From positions 1 to 26,119 of IMG/VR virus record IMGVR_UViG_3300040944_000205: DNA of 26,119 bases; one strand, written 5' to 3'. Numbering within the stretch: position 1 is the first letter of the stretch; each line of letters begins with the position of its first letter. The position numbers and the translations under genes are program-made. The notes beneath the pieces are model-generated. The model was not told the origin of the DNA. It worked only from the letters and a program-made list of their open reading frames with translations, and did no database searches. Positions 3,051-26,001 of this stretch are shown here, in pieces. The DNA comes from a virus.

Positions 3051-3106
3051 CCCTCATCCGACCCTTGCTGACGCAAGGGCCACCTTCTCCCACAAGTGGG
3101 AGAAGG
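3051..3106. repeat. Intergenic palindromic repeat, copy 1
   Basis: It begins CCCTCATCCGACCC, has a small inner hairpin, then the 24-bp palindrome CCTTCTCCCAC-AA-GTGGGAGAAGG (3083-3106). The same unit recurs in at least seven other intergenic gaps of the window. It lies directly before the terminase start, which argues against using the GTG inside the palindrome as start codon. Confidence 0.85.
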
Positions 3107-3128
3107 ACAGAGCCGCCGATTGTCCCGC

Positions 3129-4451
3129 ATGATCCACTCGCAAAACCTCGCGCGCATGACACCCTTCGAGCGCGAGGCCTTCGTTGCCGCGCTCACGCCG
3201 CGCGAGGCCGCGGAGCTGCCGTTTCTTTGGGAGTTTTGGGCGCGCCCGCCGCAGCTTTTGCCTGATGGCGATTGGGTCTATTGGCTGCCGCTTGGCGGGC
3301 GCGGCTGCGGCAAGACCCGCACCGGCGCCGAGGCCGTGCGGCGATGGGCGAAGACCAACGCCTACGTCAACATCATCGGCGCCGCCGCCGACGATGTGCG
3401 CGACGTGATGGTCGAGGGCGAGTCCGGCCTCATTAATATTTGTCCGCCCGATGAACGCCCCAAATTCGTCGCCGCGCGCAATTGCCTGGAATGGCCGAAC
3501 GGCGCGCGCACGCTATTGTTTTCGGCTGAAGCGCCGGAGCGCTTGCGCGGCAAGCAGCACTGCAAGCTATGGGCCGACGAACTCGCGGCCTGGCGCTACC
3601 CGGAAGCGTGGGATCAGGCGGTGTTCGGGCTGCGGCTCGGCGAGCGGCCGCAAGCCGTCATCACGACGACGCCGCGCCCGACCAAACTCATTCGCGAATT
3701 GCTCGCCAATCCGCTGACACACGCCACGCGCGCGACGACTTACGACAATCTCGCCAATCTGCCGCAAAGTTTTATCGACAGAATTTTGCGCGCCTATGAG
3801 GGCACGCGGCTCGGGCGTCAGGAGCTGAACGCCGAACTGCTGCTCGACACGCCCGGCGCGCTGTGGACGCGCGCCACGATCGAGGCCGCTTATCTCGCGA
3901 AGCCCCCGGCGCTGACCCGCGTCGTCGTCGCGATCGACCCGCCGGCAAGCTCCACCGAGCGCGCCGACGAATGTGGAATCATCGTCGCTGGTCTTAGCGA
4001 AAACGGCGAGCCCTGCGTGCTGGCGGACCTGTCGTCGCAGGGCGACACGCCGCTGCGCTGGGCGAGCCGCGCGGTCCAGGCGGCGCGCGATTTCGAGGCC
4101 GACGCCATCGTCGCCGAGGTCAACAATGGCGGCGACATGGTGGAGACGGTCATCCGCCAGATCGACGCCAACGTGCGCGTGAAATCCGTGCGCGCCAGCC
4201 GCGGCAAGTTTTTACGCGCCGAGCCGGTGGCTGCGTTGTACGAACAAGGCCGCGCGAAACATGTCGGCGTGTTCGCCAAGCTGGAGGACCAGATGTGCCT
4301 GATGACGCCGGAGTTCGACCGCCGCGCGGCGGGGTTTTCGCCCGATAGAGTCGACGCGCTGGTGTGGGCGGTGACGGAACTGTGTTTTTCGCAAAACGAC
4401 GGCGCGGCGATTATCGATTTTTATCGGAGGCTGGCGAGGGAGGCGAAGTAG
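3129..4451 (+). CDS. Phage/GTA terminase large subunit (DNA-packaging ATPase-nuclease)
   Basis: The 440-residue product has the two parts of a large terminase. The N-terminal ATPase has Walker A GGRGCGKT (56-63) and Walker B LWADE (147-151) followed by an ITTTPRP coupling-type motif (178-184). The C-terminal RNase H-fold nuclease has acidic residues in AIDPPAS (D270), AEVNNGGD (E330) and PDRVDALVWA (D409). The length is normal for the HK97/GTA-type family. It packages DNA into proheads through the portal. I chose ATG 3129; ATG 3156 is an alternative, and the longer GTG start at 3096 lies inside a repeat. The last codons (IDFYRRLARE) recur as a short remnant at 9117. No small terminase is seen in the window. 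The gene looks intact. Confidence 0.93.
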   Translation: MIHSQNLARMTPFEREAFVAALTPREAAELPFLWEFWARPPQLLPDGDWVYWLPLGGRGCGKTRTGAEAVRRWAKTNAYVNIIGAAADDVRDVMVEGESGLINICPPDERPKFVAARNCLEWPNGARTLLFSAEAPERLRGKQHCKLWADELAAWRYPEAWDQAVFGLRLGERPQAVITTTPRPTKLIRELLANPLTHATRATTYDNLANLPQSFIDRILRAYEGTRLGRQELNAELLLDTPGALWTRATIEAAYLAKPPALTRVVVAIDPPASSTERADECGIIVAGLSENGEPCVLADLSSQGDTPLRWASRAVQAARDFEADAIVAEVNNGGDMVETVIRQIDANVRVKSVRASRGKFLRAEPVAALYEQGRAKHVGVFAKLEDQMCLMTPEFDRRAAGFSPDRVDALVWAVTELCFSQNDGAAIIDFYRRLAREAK

Positions 4452-12224: not shown

Positions 12225-12263
12225 ATGAACCCACGGCGTTCGCGCGATGGGGAGCCTTTTAAA

Positions 12264-12842
12264 ATGAAACAATCCACGAAAGCGACGGCCCGGCTCTTTT
12301 TCGCCGCCTGCTTTTGTTGCGCCCTGGCGTTTTACGCGGGCCTTGGCCGCGCCGAGGACGCCAAGCCGACCGCCAAGCTGATCAAGCTCGCGGTGTTCGA
12401 TCTCGAACTCGACGATTTCAGCGCCGGCGGCCCGCTGGCCGGCGAAAGCGCGGAGGAGACCGCGCGGCTGCGGCGCGTCACCGCGCTGGCGCGCGAGCAA
12501 CTCGCGAAATCCGGCCTGTTCGAACTCGTCGATACAAGCGCGTCCAGCGATGTGAATCAAAGGGAGCACTGGCTGCGCAAATGCAACGGCTGCGAGGCCG
12601 ACATCGCCCGCGCGCTCGGCGCCGATATGTCCTTCCTCGGCTTCTTCCGCAAGATCAGCGTGATGGAGCAAAACCTTGAATTTCGCATCCGCGACGCCCA
12701 AACCGGCGAGTTCCTCAACGTGTCGCAAACGGATTATCGCGGCGAGACCGACGAGTCCTGGAGCCGCGCGATTGTCTGGCTCATCAGGCACGGCCTCGTC
12801 GAACCGGAACTCGCGCGCCGCGCGCAAAAACAGGGCCCGTAA
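12264..12842 (+). CDS. Secreted DUF3280/DUF2380-type protein (192 aa)
   Basis: ATG 12264 follows GGGGAG and starts a signal peptide (MKQSTKATARLFFAACFCCALAF..., likely cut after GRA near residue 30); the earlier in-frame ATG at 12225 would spoil it. The mature part has LAVFDLELDDFSAGG, LVDTSASSDV, LRKCNGCEADIARALGADM and TDESWSRAIVWLIRHGL. This pattern matches the DUF3280/DUF2380-annotated periplasmic proteins common in methylotrophic alphaproteobacteria, often near PQQ dehydrogenase genes. The function is unknown; the C-x-x-C of KCNGCEAD could bind metal or form a disulfide. It is a host-type gene lodged in the virion operon between portal and protease, and is followed by a terminator. Confidence 0.75.
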   Translation: MKQSTKATARLFFAACFCCALAFYAGLGRAEDAKPTAKLIKLAVFDLELDDFSAGGPLAGESAEETARLRRVTALAREQLAKSGLFELVDTSASSDVNQREHWLRKCNGCEADIARALGADMSFLGFFRKISVMEQNLEFRIRDAQTGEFLNVSQTDYRGETDESWSRAIVWLIRHGLVEPELARRAQKQGP

Positions 12843-12924: not shown

Positions 12925-14124
12925 ATGACGCAGTTGCAGATGTTCATTCCGCTCACCAAGATCGACGCGGGCAAGCGGCTTGTTTATGGCGTCGTCACCG
13001 CCGAGACGCCGGATCGCGGCAATGAGGTCTGCGATTACGCCAGCACCAAGCCCCATTATCAAAAATGGTCGGACGAGTTCCGCAAGGCCAGCGGCGGCAA
13101 GAGCCTCGGCAATCTGCGCGCCATGCATGGCAAGGTGGCGGCGGGGCGCGTCGAGGCGATCCATTTCAACGACGACGACAAGCAGATCGAAGTCTGCGCG
13201 AAGATCATCGACGACGCTGAATGGGCCAAGGTCGAGGCGGGCGTCTACACCGGATTTTCGCAGGGCGGCGGCTATGTGAAGCGCTGGCCCGACGAGAACG
13301 ACCCGGACCTCATGCGCTACACCGCGAGTCCTTGCGAGATTTCGCTCGTCGATCTGCCCTGCCTGCCGAGCGCGACATTCGCGATGATCAAGGCCGATGG
13401 CGCGGTCGAGACGATGAAGTTCGCGAGTTTCGACGCCGCCGTCGAGCAGGTGTGGATCGCCGGCGACGGCAAGACCTTCAAGAAGAAAGCCGAGGCGCTG
13501 GCGCATCAGGCCTTGCTTACGAGTTCCGCGTCCATGCTGGACGCGCTCGAGCAAATGGAGAACGATCTGGGCAAGGCCGCGCCAGGGGCGAGGACGCAGG
13601 CTCTGGAGCGTCTGCGCAAATGTCTCGGACAAGAAGCGTTCGAGGCCGGCCGCGCCATCGCCGCCTTGCAAATCGTGTTCGACGTGCTGGCGGCGGAAAT
13701 CGCCGAGGGCGAGGACGACGAAGGGCAGATCGCCGCGTTGCAAGACGCCATCGTCAGGCTGAAGGATTTTATCGTCGCGGAAATCTCCGAGGACGACGAA
13801 GACGACGAACAGCCCTCCGATATTTTGGAGCAAGCCGCTTCGCCGCGCGATTTCGCCAAGATTTCCGAAACGCTGGAGGCCGCGCGGCTGGAGCGCGACG
13901 CGCAGAAGGCTTTGCTTGCCGAACTCGCGCCGCGTCTCGAAAAGCTCGGCCAGCGCGTCGAGAAGCTCGCCCGCCAGCCGCTGCCGCCGCCGATGCTCGC
14001 CGGCACGCGCGCGGTGGAGAAGGGCGCGGAGGCGCGCGTCGAAGACCTCGCGGCGATGACCGGCGAGCAACGCGCGGCGCTGCTCATCAAGGTCGCGCAG
14101 AGCCAGCCGCGAGCGCTGCGATAA
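12925..14124 (+). CDS. XkdF-like prohead protease with C-terminal scaffold region (399 aa)
   Basis: Residues 1-150 resemble the XkdF-type phage peptidase: VYGVVTAETPDRGNEVCDY, LRAMHGK with H68, TGFSQGGGYVKRW with S112, and CEISLVDLPCLPSATF. This His/Ser arrangement is that of head-maturation proteases. The remainder (about 170-399) is helical and very charged, with an acidic tract (EISEDDEDDE) and coiled-coil-like repeats (LAELAPRLEKLGQRVEKLAR), as expected for a fused scaffold. It would cleave itself and the capsid protein during head maturation. The position between portal and major capsid genes is canonical. It looks intact. Confidence 0.82.
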   Translation: MTQLQMFIPLTKIDAGKRLVYGVVTAETPDRGNEVCDYASTKPHYQKWSDEFRKASGGKSLGNLRAMHGKVAAGRVEAIHFNDDDKQIEVCAKIIDDAEWAKVEAGVYTGFSQGGGYVKRWPDENDPDLMRYTASPCEISLVDLPCLPSATFAMIKADGAVETMKFASFDAAVEQVWIAGDGKTFKKKAEALAHQALLTSSASMLDALEQMENDLGKAAPGARTQALERLRKCLGQEAFEAGRAIAALQIVFDVLAAEIAEGEDDEGQIAALQDAIVRLKDFIVAEISEDDEDDEQPSDILEQAASPRDFAKISETLEAARLERDAQKALLAELAPRLEKLGQRVEKLARQPLPPPMLAGTRAVEKGAEARVEDLAAMTGEQRAALLIKVAQSQPRALR

Positions 14125-16593: not shown

Positions 16594-16733
16594 CCTTCTC
16601 CCGCCCGCGGGAGAAGGTGGCCCTTGCAAAGCAAGGGTCGGATGAGGGCTGCTGCGAAGGATTCCACCAGGTCGCGGCATCCCTCATCCGTCACGCCTTC
16701 GGCGCGCTGCCTTCTCCCACAAGTGGGAGAAGG
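16594..16733. repeat. Composite inverted intergenic repeat, copy 6
   Basis: The left half 16594-16648 (CCTTCTCCCGCCCGCGGGAG to GGATGAGGG) and the right half 16681-16733 (CCCTCATCCGTCACGCC to GTGGGAGAAGG) are inverted around a 32-bp spacer. It lies between the capsid and connector genes. Confidence 0.88.
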
Positions 16734-16774
16734 CAGCGCCCGCCGCACGCAGATAGAAAACGGAGCATCCACCC

Positions 16775-17602
16775 ATGACCACCGGCGATCTTGTCGCGCT
16801 TGGCGCGGTGAAGAACTGGCTCGGCGTCACGACGAACGACGACGACGCGCTGCTCGCCGCGCTGATCTCGCAGATCAGCCGTGGCATATACAACTACATC
16901 AACCGTTCCTTCGTGCTGCCGACCGAGGTGACGGAGGCTTACGACGGCACGGGGCGCGATCAGCTTTTGCTGCGCAACTGGCCCATTGGCGCGGTCTATT
17001 CCGTCGTCGTCGACGGCAAGGCGATTCCGCCCGCGCCGATGATGGCCGCGAACGTCCATCCGACGCATGGCTATGTGCTGGAGCAAAGCGACGACGCGCC
17101 GCCCGGCGTGATGCAGCAACTGTTCTTGCGCGGGCCGCATGTGTTTCACAAGGGGCGCCAGAACGTCGTCGTCTCCTATCGCGCCGGCTATGAGATCGTC
17201 GGCGAGGCGCAGGCGATTCCGTTGAGCGCGCCTTTCACGATCGACGCGCTCGCGCCTTACGGCGGATGGGCCGCGGACACCGGCGTTACTTACGCAGGCG
17301 GCGCGGCGATGAGCGCGGTTTTGAGCGCGCCCGCGCAGGGGCAATATTCGGTCAGCGCCGGCGTTTACACATTCGCCGCCGCGGACGCGGGCGCCGCGGT
17401 CGCCTTGTCCTATGGCTATATCCCCGCCGATCTCGAGCAATGCGCGCTCGAATGGGTCGCCGACCGCCACAAATACAAGGACCGCATCGGCATGACGAGC
17501 AAGAGTCTCGGCGGCCAGGAGACGGTCGCCTATCAGAACAAGGCGACGCCCGATTTCGTCGCGCAGTCGCTGGTGAATTTCCGCAGGATCATCGCGAATT
17601 GA
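16775..17602 (+). CDS. Head-tail connector protein with an inserted beta module (275 aa)
   Basis: The N-terminal helical part (LGAVKNWLGVTTNDDDALLAALISQISRGIYNYIN) is typical of gp6-like head-tail connectors, which assemble as a ring under the portal. The usual ending, a YRAGY strand then an IPADLEQCALEWVADRHKYKDR helix, is split by an extra module of about 70 residues (145-215) that includes QGQYSVSAGVYTFAAADAG. A clearly related module occurs in the tail tube gene at 19160-19291. The frame is intact. The ATG lies about 40 bases after a palindromic repeat. Confidence 0.8.
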   Translation: MTTGDLVALGAVKNWLGVTTNDDDALLAALISQISRGIYNYINRSFVLPTEVTEAYDGTGRDQLLLRNWPIGAVYSVVVDGKAIPPAPMMAANVHPTHGYVLEQSDDAPPGVMQQLFLRGPHVFHKGRQNVVVSYRAGYEIVGEAQAIPLSAPFTIDALAPYGGWAADTGVTYAGGAAMSAVLSAPAQGQYSVSAGVYTFAAADAGAAVALSYGYIPADLEQCALEWVADRHKYKDRIGMTSKSLGGQETVAYQNKATPDFVAQSLVNFRRIIAN

Positions 17603-17614
17603 GGCGCGCCTTTT

Positions 17615-17754
17615 CCTTCTCCCGTGGAACGGGAGAAGGTGGCCCTTGCGAAGCATGGGTCGGATGAGGGTTGTTGCGACTTGGTTGAAACTCCCAGGCG
17701 GCCCTCATCCGTCACGCCTTCGGCGCGACACCTTCTCCCACGAGTGGGAGAAGG
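17615..17754. repeat. Composite inverted intergenic repeat, copy 7
   Basis: Left half 17615-17670 (CCTTCTCCCGTGGAACGGGAG to GGATGAGGG), right half 17702-17754 (CCCTCATCCGTCACGCC to GTGGGAGAAGG), 31-bp spacer. The spacer shares TTGTTGCGACTTGGTTGAA-like sequence with the flank of copy 1. Confidence 0.88.
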
Positions 17755-17784
17755 GAGAGCCGCCCTACGAATGAGAATTCGCCC

Positions 17785-18258
17785 ATGCTCGACGTCGACA
17801 TCGAAGGTGCGGCCGAACTCGCCGCGCGGTTTGACGCCATGCCCGCCGCGATCCGCGCGGCGCTCAGGGACAAGATCGCCGATCTCGCCGATCGACTGGT
17901 CGACAAGATCAAGAACGACAAACTCGGCGGCGAGGTCTTGCGCGCGCGCACGGGCGCGTTGCAGGGGTCGATAGGATCAAGCGTCGACGACGACGGCGCG
18001 AGCGTTTTTTCGGCGGGCGTCAAATACGCCTTCGCGCAGGAATACGGCTTTGACGGCGACGAGACGGTCGCCGCGCACGCCCGCGCGATCCGCGAGGCCT
18101 TCGGCAAGGCGATCGCCCCGAAGATGATTTTCGTGCGAGCCTTTTCGCGTCACATGAACCTGCCCGAGCACAGCTTCATGCGCTCGGCGCTGGACGACAT
18201 GCAAGACGAAATCGCGTGCGCTTTGAGCGATGCCGTCAGCGAAGGGTTGGACACATGA
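17785..18258 (+). CDS. HK97 gp10-like head-closure/tail-joining protein (157 aa)
   Basis: The product has the pattern of the HK97-gp10_like/virion-morphogenesis family: LDVDIEGAAELAARFDAMP, a helical pair, then LRARTGALQGSI and VKYAFAQEYGFDG, with a C-terminal helix after RSALDDMQDEI. These proteins join head and tail. It overlaps the next gene by 4 bases (ATGA), so the two are coupled. The position after the connector gene is canonical. No lesion is seen. Confidence 0.83.
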   Translation: MLDVDIEGAAELAARFDAMPAAIRAALRDKIADLADRLVDKIKNDKLGGEVLRARTGALQGSIGSSVDDDGASVFSAGVKYAFAQEYGFDGDETVAAHARAIREAFGKAIAPKMIFVRAFSRHMNLPEHSFMRSALDDMQDEIACALSDAVSEGLDT

Positions 18259-18716
18259 ATGTCGCGCGTGAAGCGGTCTTGGCGGCGCTGGTCGCCTTGC
18301 TGGAAGGCGTCGAGTTCGATCAGCCGGTCAATGGCCAGACGGGATTCGTCTCGGTGTCGCGGCGCTTGAAACTCTGGGCCGACGTGCCGAAATCGCAGCG
18401 CCCGGCGCTGTTCGTCAGCGAACACCGCGAGCAGCCGAGCTATCAGAGCGAGGCGTTGCCGAGCAAGACCACGCTGAGCGTCGATCTCTTCATCTATATC
18501 GACGCCAGCGACAGAAACACCATTCCCGCGAGCGCGCTCAACACGATCATGGACGCGCTGGACGCCGCGCTGAGGGCGTCGCCGATGGCGGGTAACCGCC
18601 AGACGCTCGGCGGCCTCGTGTCGCATTGCCGCGTCGACGGCGCGGTTTTGAAAGACCCCGGCGATCTCGACGGCGACGGCCTGCTGTGGGTTCCGCTGAA
18701 GATACTGGCGCTTTGA
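18255..18716 (+). CDS. Tail terminator/completion protein (153 aa)
   Basis: ATG 18255 overlaps the gp10-like stop. The protein begins with a helix (VAREAVLAALVALLEGV) followed by beta strands (GFVSVSRRLKLW, PALFVSEHREQPSYQ, TTLSVDLFIYIDAS) and ends with RVDGAVLKDPGDLDGDG and a final strand, a layout of small tail terminator proteins (gpU/gp37-like role). I assign it by length, secondary-structure pattern and its fixed place between the gp10-like and tail tube genes; there is no diagnostic motif. Confidence 0.65.
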   Translation: MNVAREAVLAALVALLEGVEFDQPVNGQTGFVSVSRRLKLWADVPKSQRPALFVSEHREQPSYQSEALPSKTTLSVDLFIYIDASDRNTIPASALNTIMDALDAALRASPMAGNRQTLGGLVSHCRVDGAVLKDPGDLDGDGLLWVPLKILAL

Positions 18717-18725
18717 CGCGCTCTT

Positions 18726-18749
18726 CCTTCTCCCACTTGTGGGAGAAGG
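18726..18749. repeat. Single palindromic repeat, copy 8
   Basis: CCTTCTCCCAC-TT-GTGGGAGAAGG, a perfect 24-bp palindrome between the tail terminator and tube genes, without the CCCTCATCCG arm. Confidence 0.88.
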
Positions 18750-18795
18750 GAGCGCCCGCGGGATACGACATCTTAAAACTTAAGGAACCAAACGC

Positions 18796-19540
18796 ATGTC
18801 CAACAACACTTCGCTCGCCTTCGGCTCCGGCGTCCTGATCGGCACGACGTCGGCCGGACCCCTGCAATTTGGAACCTTGCAGGATGTGTCGGTCGACTTT
18901 TCCTTTTTCGGTCAAGTCGCTGATGGGGCAATATCAGTTTCCGGTCGCGGTGGCGCGCGGCGCCGGCAAGATCTCGGGCAAGGCGAAATTCGCCAATATC
19001 GACGGCCCCATCCTCAACACGATTTTCTTCGGCAATACGCCGGCGACCGGCGAGACGCTGTGGTCCTATAATGAAGGCGCGACTGTCGGCGCCGCCTCGC
19101 CCTACACCGCGACGGTGCCCAACGCCGCGAATTTCGACGAGAATCTCGGCGTCGCCTATGCGTCGAGCGGACTGCAACTGACGCCCGTCGTCAGCAGCCC
19201 GGCGGCTGGGCAATATAGCGTCGCGAGCGGCGTCTATACGTTCAGCTCCGCCGACGCCGGCAAGGCCGTGCTGATCACCTACAGCTATACGCAGTCCGTC
19301 GCGGGCTCGAAGGCGGTGATCTCCAACAAGCTGATGGGCGTGGCGCCGACGTTTCAGATCGACTTTTACCAGACCAACCCCAATGTCGCCGGCGCGCAAT
19401 GGTCGCTGCGGCTGTATAGCTGCATCTCGTCGAAGCTCTCGATGGGCAGCAAGCTCGAAGACTTCACGATTCCCGAAATGGATTTCGAAGCCTTCGCCAA
19501 TGCGTCGAACAACATCGGCCAATTGAACACCGCGATTTAA
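18796..19540 (+). pseudogene. Major tail tube protein, frameshifted at a T5 run
   Basis: It starts at ATG 18796 (MSNNTSLAFGSGVLIGTTSAGP, with AAGGAAC upstream). After VDFSF the frame breaks, and the rest of the protein (SVKSLMGQYQFPVAVARGAG to the TAA at 19538-19540) is read in the +1 frame. Removing one T from T5 (18904-18908) restores a continuous product of about 247 residues. The tail tube protein polymerises as rings around the tape measure; the position before the chaperone gene fits. The protein contains a GQYSVASGVYTFSSADAGK module also found in the connector. It may be a sequence error or a real 1-bp insertion; as given, no full tube protein is made. Confidence 0.82.
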
Positions 19541-19549
19541 GGCGCTCCC

Positions 19550-19735
19550 ATGAATCCCGATCCCAACATTGACTGCGCCGGCGCGCCGGTGGTGACTCTG
19601 GCCGGGCGCGAATGGTTCGTGCCCGTGCTGGCGATGCGCCAGGCGCGCGTCGTCGTGCCGGCCCTGATGCGGCTCATGCCCGTATTGCAGGAAATGCAGA
19701 GCGGCCAGCCCCAGGCGATGGTGATCGGCCCCCAG
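19550..19735 (+). pseudogene. Tail assembly chaperone gene, 5' part (interrupted by an IS3-family element)
   Basis: Starts 9 bases after the tube gene. 62 residues: VVTLAGREWFVPVLAMRQARVV and PALMRLMP are in the style of small tail assembly chaperone (TAC) proteins. The frame stops at the first codon of the inserted IS. The remainder (SEENYDAIIAVVHAALTRAYP...) resumes at 21002 with the codon phase kept across the element. Confidence 0.75.
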
Positions 19736-19755
19736 TGATGGGTCCAGTTTTAATG

Positions 19756-20613
19756 TTAGTGCATTGTCGGCCTCGGAGCCAGCGCGGGCGGCGGAGCCGG
19801 TTGGGGTTGCGCAGCCGCCCGTGCGGTCATGGCTGGCACGAACACCTCAGGAGCTGGTGGCTTGTAACCCAATGATCCATGTGGACGGACGGTGTTGTAG
19901 TGACGCCGCCAGCTTTCGATCACGATCCTTGCTTCGGCAAGCGAGTAGAAAATTTCGCCGTCGAGCAGCTCGTCACGCAAGCGCGCGTTGAAACTCTCGA
20001 TGAAGCCGTTTTCCCAGGGGCTGCCCGGCGTGATGTAGGCGGTCTTCGCGCCGACGGCGGCGATCCATTCCTGCACGGCCTTGGCGACGAACTCGGGACC
20101 ATTGTCAGAACGGATGTGCTCCGGAACGCCGCGCAGGATGAACAGATCGGTGAGCACGTTGATTACATCGATGGATTTCAGCTTCCGATCGATGCGAATG
20201 GCCAGACATTCGTGCGTAAACTCGTCGACGATGTTCAGCATCCGATATTTCCTTCCGTCATGGGTGCGATCCTCGACAAAGTCGTAAGACCAGACATGAT
20301 TGCGCCGCTCCGCTCGCAGGCGAAGGCATGATCCGTCGGCGAGCCACAGCCGGCCGCGTTTGGGTTGTTTGGCTGGAACCTTCAGCCCCTCGCGTCGCCA
20401 GATCCGTTCGACCCGCTTGTCGTTGACGACCCAACCCGCCGTTGTGCGAAGCATCTCCGCGATCTTCCGATAGCCGTAGCGGCCATACTGGCGGGCAAGC
20501 TCGACGATGTCGGCGGTCAGCCGCTCCTCGTCCTCTCGTCCCGTCGGAACGCGGCGCTGGGTCGAACGATGCTGTCCGAGCACGCGGCAGACCCGGCGCT
20601 CGGACAGTTTCAA
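19756..20613 (-). CDS. IS3-family OrfB (DDE transposase/integrase core)
   Basis: The integrase-core DDE triad is present: VWSYDFVEDRT (D), RSDNGPEF (D) and PWENGFIESFN (E), with an upstream HTH_21-type region (GRYGYRKIAEMLR). The first ATG is at 20613, but the frame is open upstream over LLSPARRRACIDHVR and overlaps the end of orfA. Like other IS407-group elements it is most likely made as an OrfAB fusion by a -1 frameshift. The C-terminus has an Ala/Pro-rich tail. The protein looks intact, so the element may be active. Confidence 0.93.
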   Translation of the reverse strand: MKLSERRVCRVLGQHRSTQRRVPTGREDEERLTADIVELARQYGRYGYRKIAEMLRTTAGWVVNDKRVERIWRREGLKVPAKQPKRGRLWLADGSCLRLRAERRNHVWSYDFVEDRTHDGRKYRMLNIVDEFTHECLAIRIDRKLKSIDVINVLTDLFILRGVPEHIRSDNGPEFVAKAVQEWIAAVGAKTAYITPGSPWENGFIESFNARLRDELLDGEIFYSLAEARIVIESWRRHYNTVRPHGSLGYKPPAPEVFVPAMTARAAAQPQPAPPPALAPRPTMH

Positions 20614-22642: not shown

Positions 22643-23941
22643 ATGGCCGACGATGTGACGATCCGCTTTAGCGCCGACACCGACGATTTGGAGGACGGTC
22701 TCGCCAATGTGCGCGGCGCCGTCGGCTCGGTGACGCCGGACCTCAAGAAGCTCTCGGAGAGCGTCAGCGACGCCGCGCAAAAAGCCGCGCCCGCGACGGC
22801 GGCCTTTTCGCGCATGTCGGTCGCCATCGGCGACGGCCTGACCGGCGCGTTGCGGCCGGCTTCCGCCGCCTTGGGGGGGGCGCTCGGCGACGACGCCGGC
22901 GCCGCCAAGAAGCGCATCGACGACGAGATCAAGGCGCTGCAAGAATCGCTGGCGATCAAGAAGACGATTTTCGACGGCGAGGCGAAGCTCAAGAACATCA
23001 GCGAGGGCGAAAAAATCGCGTTCGTGAGGGCCGCGACGCAGGAGGAATACGAGGCGCAACGCGCTTTGCTGGAGCAGGAGGCGGGGCTCGCCGATCTGAG
23101 CGTCAAGCAAAAGGAGGCGGCGCTGAGCAAGATCAGGACGCTCGAAGCGACGCATCAAAAGCAGATACTGCAACTCGCCTACCAGGCCGCCGAGGAGCAG
23201 GACAAAATTTGGCAGGGTCTCGCGAGCAAAATCGGCTCTTCGATGAGCTCCAGCATCATGGGGTTGTTGCAGCACACGACGACCTTTCGCGAAGGCGTGC
23301 GCCAAATGGCGGTGCAGGCGACGCAATATTTCGTCAATATGGGCACGCAATGGGTCGCCAGTTTCGCGATGAACATAGCCAAGAACGTCGCGACGCATGT
23401 GATGGGCGAACAGGCGATGACGGCGGCGACGCAACTCGGCGTTTCCGAGCGCACGGCGAGCGAGGCGGCGGGAAGCGTCGCGGACCTCGCCGGCAAAGTG
23501 GCGGCGGTGATCAAGAGCATCATGGCGTCGTCGGCCGAGGCTTTCGCCGGCGTGTTCGGCTTCATGGCGCCGCTGCTGGGGCCGGCCGCGGCAGGTCCGG
23601 CGGATGCGGCGCAGGCGACCGTGGCGGGCGCGGCCAGCATTGCCTCCTTCGACATCGGCGCCTGGAACATTCCGCAAGACCAGCTCGCGATGGTGCACAA
23701 GAACGAACTGGTGATGACCGCGAGTCAGGGCGACGCCTTCCGCAACCTCGTCAACAATGGCGGCGCGGGAAGCGACCCCGCGCCGAGCGTTCACGCGCCG
23801 GTGAACTTCCATGTCCACGCGCTCGACGCTCAGGGCGTCGCGAGCTTCTTGCAAGGCAATGGCCGCGAGATCATGAAGGCGGTCGGCCGCCATGTGCAGG
23901 ACGGGCTGCACCTTGGCGTGCGGGGACTGAATCCGACGTGA
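22643..23941 (+). CDS. Phage tail tape measure protein, short (432 aa)
   Basis: ATG 22643 follows AGGGA. Residues 1-130 begin DVTIRFSADTDDLEDGLANV, the style of lambda-family tape measure N-termini. Then come long helical, charged segments (EIKALQESLAIKKTIF, EEYEAQRALLEQEAGLADLS). The middle and C-terminal parts have hydrophobic helices (FGFMAPLLGPAAAGPADA) and an end with HAPVNFHVHALDAQGVASFL. The protein sets tail length and may pass into the target cell membrane. At 432 residues it predicts a short tail. The virion operon resumes here after the minus-strand cargo. Frame intact. Confidence 0.82.
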   Translation: MADDVTIRFSADTDDLEDGLANVRGAVGSVTPDLKKLSESVSDAAQKAAPATAAFSRMSVAIGDGLTGALRPASAALGGALGDDAGAAKKRIDDEIKALQESLAIKKTIFDGEAKLKNISEGEKIAFVRAATQEEYEAQRALLEQEAGLADLSVKQKEAALSKIRTLEATHQKQILQLAYQAAEEQDKIWQGLASKIGSSMSSSIMGLLQHTTTFREGVRQMAVQATQYFVNMGTQWVASFAMNIAKNVATHVMGEQAMTAATQLGVSERTASEAAGSVADLAGKVAAVIKSIMASSAEAFAGVFGFMAPLLGPAAAGPADAAQATVAGAASIASFDIGAWNIPQDQLAMVHKNELVMTASQGDAFRNLVNNGGAGSDPAPSVHAPVNFHVHALDAQGVASFLQGNGREIMKAVGRHVQDGLHLGVRGLNPT

Positions 23942-24681: not shown

Positions 24682-26001
24682 ATGACCTTCCCCTATCTCT
24701 CCGCGATTAACCTCATCCCCGCGTCGGGCGAGTTCGTCTACGACACCGTGGCGTATAGCGGCGAGCCGCCGGGCTCTTCGACCTTCACGCCGATCAACAC
24801 CTATCACGCGCCTGGCGGAACGCGCACGGACGTTATGTTCGCGCTCGATCAGTTGCAGGCGACGCTGCCCAATTGCGAGAGCGTCGCGCTGGTCGTGCAA
24901 TGGCTGGGGAACTCGCTCGACGCCTCGACGTGCCAGGTCTATCCGGCGACGACCTATCTCCTTAACGGCGCGGTCGGCGCCTTCGAGCCGACGGCGGGTG
25001 GAACGGATTCGTGGCGCGTCTCAGACGTGACGCTCGCCACATCCGGCCTCATTCCGATCAGCCGGCCCGACGGCGTTCACGCCGTTTACGGCGGCACGCC
25101 CTCCGATCAATCGGTCGTGCGCTGCATCGCGGAGCTTAAAGATCGCGGCTTCAAGGTCGCGCTCTATCTGATGATGAACATGGACGTGACCGGCAAGCCG
25201 TGGCGCGGCCTCGTGACCTATTCGCCCGATGTCTCCAGCGCCGCGACGACGGTGGCGAATAATTTTCTGGGAACCGCCGCGACCTCGCAGTTCACGCGCG
25301 ACGCGACCAATCTCACCGTGCATTATTCGGGCGACGTGCTCGACTTCACCTATCGCCGCTTCGTGCTGCATTACGCCAATCTCGCGGCGCTCGCGGGCGG
25401 CGTCAATCTCTTCGTGTTCGGCTCCGAGCTGCGCGGGCTCGAGGCGATACGCGGCCCCGCCTGGACGCCCGCCGGCACGACGGACGGAAGCGGAAACGCG
25501 GTGTGGGATTATCCGTTCGTCGCCGGGCTCGTCACGCTGGCCAATGATTGCCGCTCGGTGTTCGACGCGGCGGGTTTCACCAAGAATCTCGCGGCGCGCG
25601 AAAACCTCATCACCTATTCCGCCGATTGGTCGCAATGGATGGGCGCGCAGCACGCGGGCGTAACGGGAATCTTTCCGCATCTCGACACGCTGTTCGCGTC
25701 ATCCAACATCGATTTCGTGTCGATCGACAATTACATGCCGTTGTCGGACTGGACCACCGGCGACGGCGGTCTCGACGCGCGAAACTGGCGTCTGCCGGCG
25801 CCTGCCTCTTGGCCGCTCGCCAGTCCGACGACGCTCGGCTTTGGCCTCACCGGCGCGCCGGACGTTCATCGGCTCGACTATCTGACCGCCAACATCGAGG
25901 GCGGCGAGAAATGGGGGCAATTCTGTACCCTAACCTACATGTTTTGTCCGCAACATATGGTGTGCGCGTCACCGCAAACGGAGCGCATCTCTGCCCTCTA
26001 A
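24682..26001 (+). pseudogene. GTA TIM-barrel-like host-specificity/baseplate protein, truncated at both ends
   Basis: The frame carries the GTA TIM-barrel-like domain: AINLIPASGEFVYDT, SVALVVQWLGNSLDAS, ELKDRGFKVALYLMMNMDV, LFVFGSELRGLEAIRG, ENLITYSADWSQWMG, DFVSIDNYMPLSDW and NIEGGEKW. In GTA gp15-type megaproteins this domain lies several hundred residues from the start; here it begins almost at once, with an in-frame TGA 21 bases upstream. After NIEGGEKW (about 25915) the sequence leaves the family, and an unrelated tail of about 28 residues ends at TAA 25999-26001. The usual remainder, including receptor-binding parts, is absent. It is a fragment of the tail-tip protein. Confidence 0.78.

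Follow-up and report, generated by a model that had tools for sequence, protein, structure and literature searches.

The window, a record of 26,119 bases from a virus of environmental bacteria, encodes the same beta domain of about 70 residues in two different virion proteins, the head-tail connector and the tail tube protein. In the connector the domain (hereafter the module) is an insertion that many relatives lack, one relative carries it at a second site of the same protein, and further families of structural proteins carry it as well. The module is probably a mobile accessory domain, resembling the D2 domains of tail tubes and the attachment domains of neck adaptors, that would sit on the periphery of virion rings, has been copied among virion proteins and most likely adds contacts between subunits or to the capsid.

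The window and its gene order

The features of the window are collected in Table 1. Two genes lie between the carriers of the module, one related to tail completion (Neck1-like) proteins and one to tail terminators. The location of a transposase gene right behind the short orf that follows the tube gene suggests an insertion sequence within the tail genes. Upstream, a DUF3280 protein adjoins the head genes, which is unusual company in a phage gene cluster. Short palindromes of similar type (CTTCTCCCAC..GTGGGAGAAGG) were noticed by eye between late genes, at positions 16700-16740, 17610-17640, 17730-17760 and 18725-18750. A scan of genome contigs with the connector yielded one relative among 35 stretches, a Methylocystaceae metagenome-assembled genome (93% identical) in which the module occurs twice, in orfs that equal those of the window in size.

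Table 1. Genes of the window and sequence features related to the module
Feature	Position	Strand	Evidence or remark
Terminase	3096-4451		
DUF3280 protein	12225-12842		PF11684, E 6.6e-39
Head-protease-like gene	12925-14124		
Head-tail connector/adaptor gene, 275 aa	16775..17602	+	Pfam PF05135, phrog_442, match of model to DT57C/T5 neck adaptor
Native beta domain of the connector, equivalent to an attachment domain (residues 47-138)	16913..17188	+	Predicted strands E50-58 to E127-137
Left edge of insertion site, YRAGY, residues 135-139	17177..17191	+	Two connector alignments
First module copy, inserted in the connector (residues 147-215)	17213..17419	+	BLASTP, alignment of relatives; pLDDT
Right edge of insertion site, IPADLEQ, residues 216-222, where the next helix starts	17420..17440	+	Two alignments; H218-233
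Tail completion / Neck1-like gene	17785..18258	+	phrog_5, E 2.5e-10
Tail terminator-like gene, start uncertain	18216..18716	+	phrog_8150 (E 3.6e-26) and the terminator family phrog_4204 (E 0.0025)
Tube N-terminal segment, in a frame different from the rest	18796..18906	+	MSNNTSLAFGSGVLIGTTSAG; tubes of relatives are single-frame
Tail tube protein, main frame	18869..19540	+	phrog_8234, E 8.8e-55
Inserted module, copy 2, tube	about 19079..19291	+	BLASTP; HMM
Short orf after tube	19550-19738		
Transposase with integrase core	19756-20613	-	Directly after the short orf
Tape-measure-like protein	22643-23941		
GTA megatron-like tail protein, near the end of the record	24682-26001	+	GTA_TIM PF13547, E 9.7e-46; phrog_4271, E 2.8e-66

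Homology of the two copies

When the connector (16775-17599) was compared with the tube frame (18869-19537) by BLASTP, a single significant stretch was found, in which 31 of 69 residues are identical (E 3e-13). Local alignment of the two proteins scores 143, the highest score among 1000 shuffles being 61; without the modules it drops to 26, and the sharing is confined to the module. At the level of families, profile-profile comparison by hhalign linked the connector and tube modules over 73 columns (probability 99.6%, E 2e-24). The DNA of the two window copies is identical at 115 of 201 aligned bases. At E <= 10 the 26 kb record contains no further copy. The initial annotation had quoted a peptide from each gene and called the two clearly related; both peptides are present in the genes to which it assigned them, and their relationship is borne out. 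Its placement of the module was right, its extent too short: the domain occupies the larger intervals of Table 1. In the tube, the module HMM matches residues 81-151 of the orf that opens at 18839 (E 9.3e-30, obtained with L002, a locus of identical sequence).

The module is covered by no model of Pfam or NCBIfam above cutoff. A Pfam scan of the module segments alone found no family at E <= 1, including the Ig-like families Big_1, Big_2, I-set and FN3, and the scan of the tube gave nothing but a sub-threshold match to DUF11 (E 0.21). When the PDB was searched by sequence with the alignments of both families, no credible match came up, only weak ones unrelated to the module. Among PHROGs the module forms a piece of the tube family phrog_8234, which the connector matches by way of residues 149-215. 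Nineteen positions are conserved in at least 70% of the copies with the same residue in connectors and tubes (Pro, Gly, Val, Tyr, Phe, Ala, Asp and Gln); they look like structural positions of strands and turns.

The insertion site in the connector

The connector was identified by Pfam PF05135, the gp6-like head-tail connector family (residues 9-54, E 1.2e-7, 32.4 bits against a cutoff of 21.2), and by phrog_442, a head-tail adaptor family (E 2.8e-20), and its model superimposes on the neck adaptors of DT57C and T5 (Z 11.2 and 11.1, 3.6 Å, with 167 of 170 residues of 8hqo_P aligned). Like T5 p144, in which the attachment domain is described as residues 46-110 (PMC11313276, in part), it has a beta domain of its own.

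The module had been said to split the Y-x-x-GY ... IP-x-DLEQ joint of such connectors, and relatives without it do pass straight from YTAGY to IPxDLEQ. In 29 aligned connectors, 22 with and seven without the module, the flanks agree and the gap falls exactly between YxAGY and IPxDLEQ. A query with a module-free connector retrieved 61 viral loci, of which nine have the module and 50 lack it (one of the remaining two is cut at a contig edge and one has no match to the core profile). Altogether the module is present in 64 of 142 distinct connectors of full length, and beside 44 tube loci the neighbouring connector is module-bearing in 30, module-free in 11 and not in view in three. One connector (L144), whose usual joint is intact, has the module elsewhere, in the stretch from helix 1 to helix 2, and its copy nests in a branch otherwise composed of 44 tube copies (support 83/94).

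The tail tube protein

The reading frame of the tube gene is interrupted near 18,900 (region 18796-18920), a detail absent from the initial annotation; the break lies in a T/C-rich run. In close relatives such as L014 and L006 the gene is in one frame; the break in the window is either a sequencing error or a broken gene.

The module is nearly universal in tube proteins: it is present in 43 of 44 tube loci, in 35 of 36 loci retrieved with a module-free tube query, and in 176 of 187 distinct tube orfs. Nine of the 11 orfs without it run off a contig edge and one is the N-terminal fragment of the window, which leaves L057 as the sole complete tube from which the module is cleanly absent. The connector of L057 is likewise module-free, and its 4.5 kb contig contains no module copy at E <= 1. 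Constant presence as part of the core fold, which the initial annotation had named as evidence against a mobile module, is contradicted in the connector by the 50 module-free loci, and in the tube it very nearly holds, with this one complete exception.

Four loci (L059, L173, L236 and L237) each have a tandem pair of tube genes with a module in each gene, and in another tube (L106:1336-2358) about 80 extra residues interrupt the module, possibly an insert within an insert.

Predicted structures

AlphaFold modelled the connector with a pLDDT of 83.4 (block means of 83-96 over residues 141-230), and the module appears as a separate beta unit that follows the protein's own beta domain and runs directly into helix 218-233. 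The tube was modelled from a relative, L014; the model is poor overall (66.9), the module blocks have pLDDT of 88-95, and their strand order is as in the connector module. A helix (residues 70-78) precedes the module in a host part of low confidence, and L057 skips exactly the module part. Structure prediction of both proteins, the check proposed initially, thus gave a confident separate beta unit in each. The best PDB match of the tube model is the SPR tail tube protein (8xkn, E 7.3e-6); a search of BFVD with the same model returned no informative names.

The tube module aligns with a crAss001 portal-assembly chain (Z 8.3, 2.2 Å, 71 residues) and with residues 44-111 of the T5 adaptor (9ilp_a, Z 6.6, 2.2 Å, 67 residues), and the connector module with a neck chain of phage 812 (Z 7.7, 2.0 Å, 65 residues) and with residues 89-155 of the SPR tube protein (Z 5.7, 2.6 Å, 64 residues), a part that is taken for its D2 domain. 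Across the two copies, matches to 8xkn_B reached Z 5.1-5.7, to 9jgh_G Z 5.0-5.6 and to 6xgr_A Z 4.5 at 4.7 Å. Neck, tube and baseplate proteins thus all contain small beta domains that the module matches, with Z of 5-8, values that for a beta sandwich of 65-75 residues can reflect a common arrangement alone; the Ig-like PrgB gave Z 3.2. The term Ig-like, applied to the module initially, would fit at most at the level of the fold, the Pfam scan having matched no Ig-like family. The idea that the module derives by sequence from the native beta domain of the connector was rejected, hhalign giving a probability of 0.1-0.8% despite folds of similar appearance.

Other carriers of the module

The module HMM, run over the loci gathered, found at least 224 matches in at least 222 orfs, a census that is a lower bound and, owing to the scan with a degenerate DNA motif that was used in gathering loci, enriched for module-bearing genes. 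When 221 carriers, some of them the same gene in overlapping loci, were clustered with the module masked and nine representatives were scanned, seven clusters resulted: at least 140 tube proteins, at least 65 connectors, at least six megatron-like tail proteins (Phage-tail_3/Rcc01698-like), at least five unclassified proteins of about 970 residues without Pfam match (from three genomes), at least two baseplate hubs (PF09931/PF09356), at least two DUF2460 proteins, which we take to be GTA-type distal tail proteins, and at least one protein with a sheath-like C-terminus. In both DUF2460 carriers and one hub (L048) the family profile picks up again beyond the module; in another hub (L166) the module lies upstream of BR0599. 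The sheath-like carrier has a Pfam match below cutoff and a PHROG match at E 4e-21. It is a protein of 1481 residues (L127:414-4856), and its tail-sheath-like C-terminus may indicate that the module is not confined to non-contractile tails. In isolated phages, some of them siphoviruses, the module is rare: a query with the consensus matched eight of 50,697 records at E <= 1, among which Rhizobium phage RHEph12 reached no better than E 0.4. Brevundimonas phages vB_BpoS-Polewnik and Strzyga are isolated siphoviruses, and in Polewnik the connector, the tube and a DUF2460 protein each contain the module.

The search in other virion proteins, which had been proposed initially, thereby found further carriers, and the description of the module as mobile is supported by its presence or absence among relatives, its two insertion sites in one connector family, the seven clusters of carriers and the separate beta unit in both models. 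It has the look of an accessory component reused among virion proteins, in a role that is putative. A broader proposition, which we put forward tentatively and rate at somewhat less than even, is that a single family of domains has spread along the whole tail axis, from the neck adaptor through tube, DUF2460 protein and hub to the megatron at the tip, in a large group of siphophages from the environment. It would have entered these proteins again and again, at loops and where strands pass into helices, and in the adaptor its resemblance to the attachment domain would allow tandem chaining. In that case the module would serve as general trim, which phages could fit to any ring or leave off.

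Origin and possible function

The module is most likely kin to the peripheral D2 of this family of tail tubes and would have been copied from there into other virion proteins. In the lineage of the window it would have been added to the connector where the attachment domain meets the C-terminal helix bundle, and its last strand (..SYGY) appears to take the place of the strand (..SYxAGY) through which the host domain leads into the helix. By analogy, the module would lie on the outer face of the ring in both proteins, presumably a 12-mer in the neck adaptor and a 6-mer in the tube. In view of its fold matches to the T5 attachment domain and to part of the SPR tube, we take it for an accessory domain at the ring periphery that would add contacts, most likely to adjacent subunits and, in the neck, to the rim of the portal or capsid.

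The module might instead be a putative binder of host-surface glycans shared by the neck, tube and tail tip, by which the particle would stick along its length, in line with the common surface binding suggested initially. For Douge, Ig-like domains on both capsid and tube are reported to bind mycobacterial glycans (PMC13033339, in part), tail-tip proteins are among the carriers, and the occurrence in isolated siphoviruses is also compatible with such a role. No shared polar patch was seen beyond the 19 structural-looking conserved positions, however, and the authors who described the R4C adaptor considered its Ig-like domain unlikely to act in adsorption since it adjoins the head (as argued in part of PMC10276861). 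Glycan binding is a possible but rather unlikely function. The natural pairs with and without the module, together with the two sites in one connector family, make a clean system for testing the purpose of the domain: if neck and tube copies both bind host cells, adsorption would be the shared role; if only contacts between subunits change, stabilisation would be.

As an alternative to insertion, the module could be ancestral to both proteins and have been lost repeatedly from connectors. A tree of the connector core (142 sequences thinned to 111, orfs that do not span the core profile being dropped) requires five changes of module state, two of them forced by well-supported branches, and gain cannot be told from loss in it; near-universality in tubes would also suit an ancestral module. 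Against this, the second site in L144 with its intact joint needs a gain, the hub copies are at two places, and the module is absent from the T5 adaptor p144 (170 aa, one attachment domain) as from most connector loci, making repeated loss improbable. Among 117 distinct locus pairs, both proteins have the module in 50, the tube only in 66, neither in one and the connector only in none. This nested occurrence and the near-universality in tubes point to a direction from tube to connector; the pattern fits a spread from the tube without proving it, and loss could give the same pattern.

The two copies are homologous, lie 1.7 kb apart and belong to one late gene cluster, as a recent duplication or ongoing gene conversion in the phage lineage of the window would predict. 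In 58 loci with both copies, however, the identity of connector and tube modules is 0.432 within genomes and 0.431 between genomes, 915 of 2000 permutations reach the observed within-genome value, and in trees the copies group by carrier, not by genome. These results and the divergent DNA of the two copies lead to rejection of this scenario, which has hardly any probability left; equal identity and grouping by carrier place the separation of the two copies long before the phage of the window. Resolution is poor in the module trees, which were built from 71 columns, and a single change between tube and connector is all that their starred branches require; copies with fewer than 55 profile positions or more than 105 residues were dropped (250 thinned to 198), and a reduced tree of 70 rows excludes seven long-branch rows and all 13 other carriers. 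Convergence on a generic beta hairpin pattern (GxYxV..GxYxF..G.V.ISY) in place of common descent, for which one could cite the fold matches across many virion beta domains and weak PHROG cross-matches to other structural families, is equally far-fetched given the profile-profile match, the identity over 69 residues and the shuffles that fall short.

Comparison with known systems

The D2 domains of the tail tubes of YSD1/Chi and SPR are beta sandwiches inserted after a helix of the tube core; the tube module has the same placement and may be similar in fold. In YSD1, domain 2 is inserted between alpha1 and beta4 (described in part of PMC8718954), and the accounts of known D2 domains place them outside the tube, that of YSD1 packing on its neighbour (PMC8718954 and PMC10981675, each in part). 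The module differs in that its sequence family occurs also in neck, hub and other tail proteins and has no credible sequence match in the PDB, and its alignment to YSD1 D2 is weak (Z 4.5, 4.7 Å).

The attachment domains of adaptors (T5 p144, RcGTA g6 and the R4C adaptor) are a second point of comparison. The tube module may be similar in fold to that of T5 p144, yet hhalign found no sequence-profile link (below 1%). The connector of the window has its own attachment domain, to which the module would be added as a second, tandem one, an arrangement that would account for the tolerance of the joint for the module. The Ig-like attachment domain of the R4C adaptor also falls outside the Pfam Ig families (as stated in part of PMC10276861); unlike the inserted module, it belongs to the adaptor itself.

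Promiscuous Ig-like domains of tailed phages, reportedly described by Fraser et al. in 2006, are likewise small accessory beta domains (Big_1, Big_2, I-set and FN3) spread across structural proteins. The module shares this trait in the wide sense, the same domain being found in several structural classes, but it matches no Pfam family and in the two proteins of the window is an internal insert. Its distribution resembles that of the promiscuous Ig-like virion domains, but it falls outside the Pfam families to which they belong. Where a review enumerates Ig-like carriers, it names fibre, baseplate, tube, capsid and Hoc proteins, and the neck adaptor is not in that list (PMC9022992, in part). 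Mosaicism of phage proteins similarly places homologous domains in different functional classes; receptor-binding, baseplate, endolysin and replication proteins are stressed in part of that account, in which sharing between neck adaptor and tube is absent (PMC10684548). A search of open-licence PMC papers recognised no description of this module family in adaptor and tube, nor of its neck-adaptor carrier. Annotators gain a profile for a domain without a model in the Pfam and NCBIfam collections searched. Promiscuous Ig-like domains of virions were already known; what appears to be new, within the papers searched, is a single family that extends across neck, tube and tip proteins.
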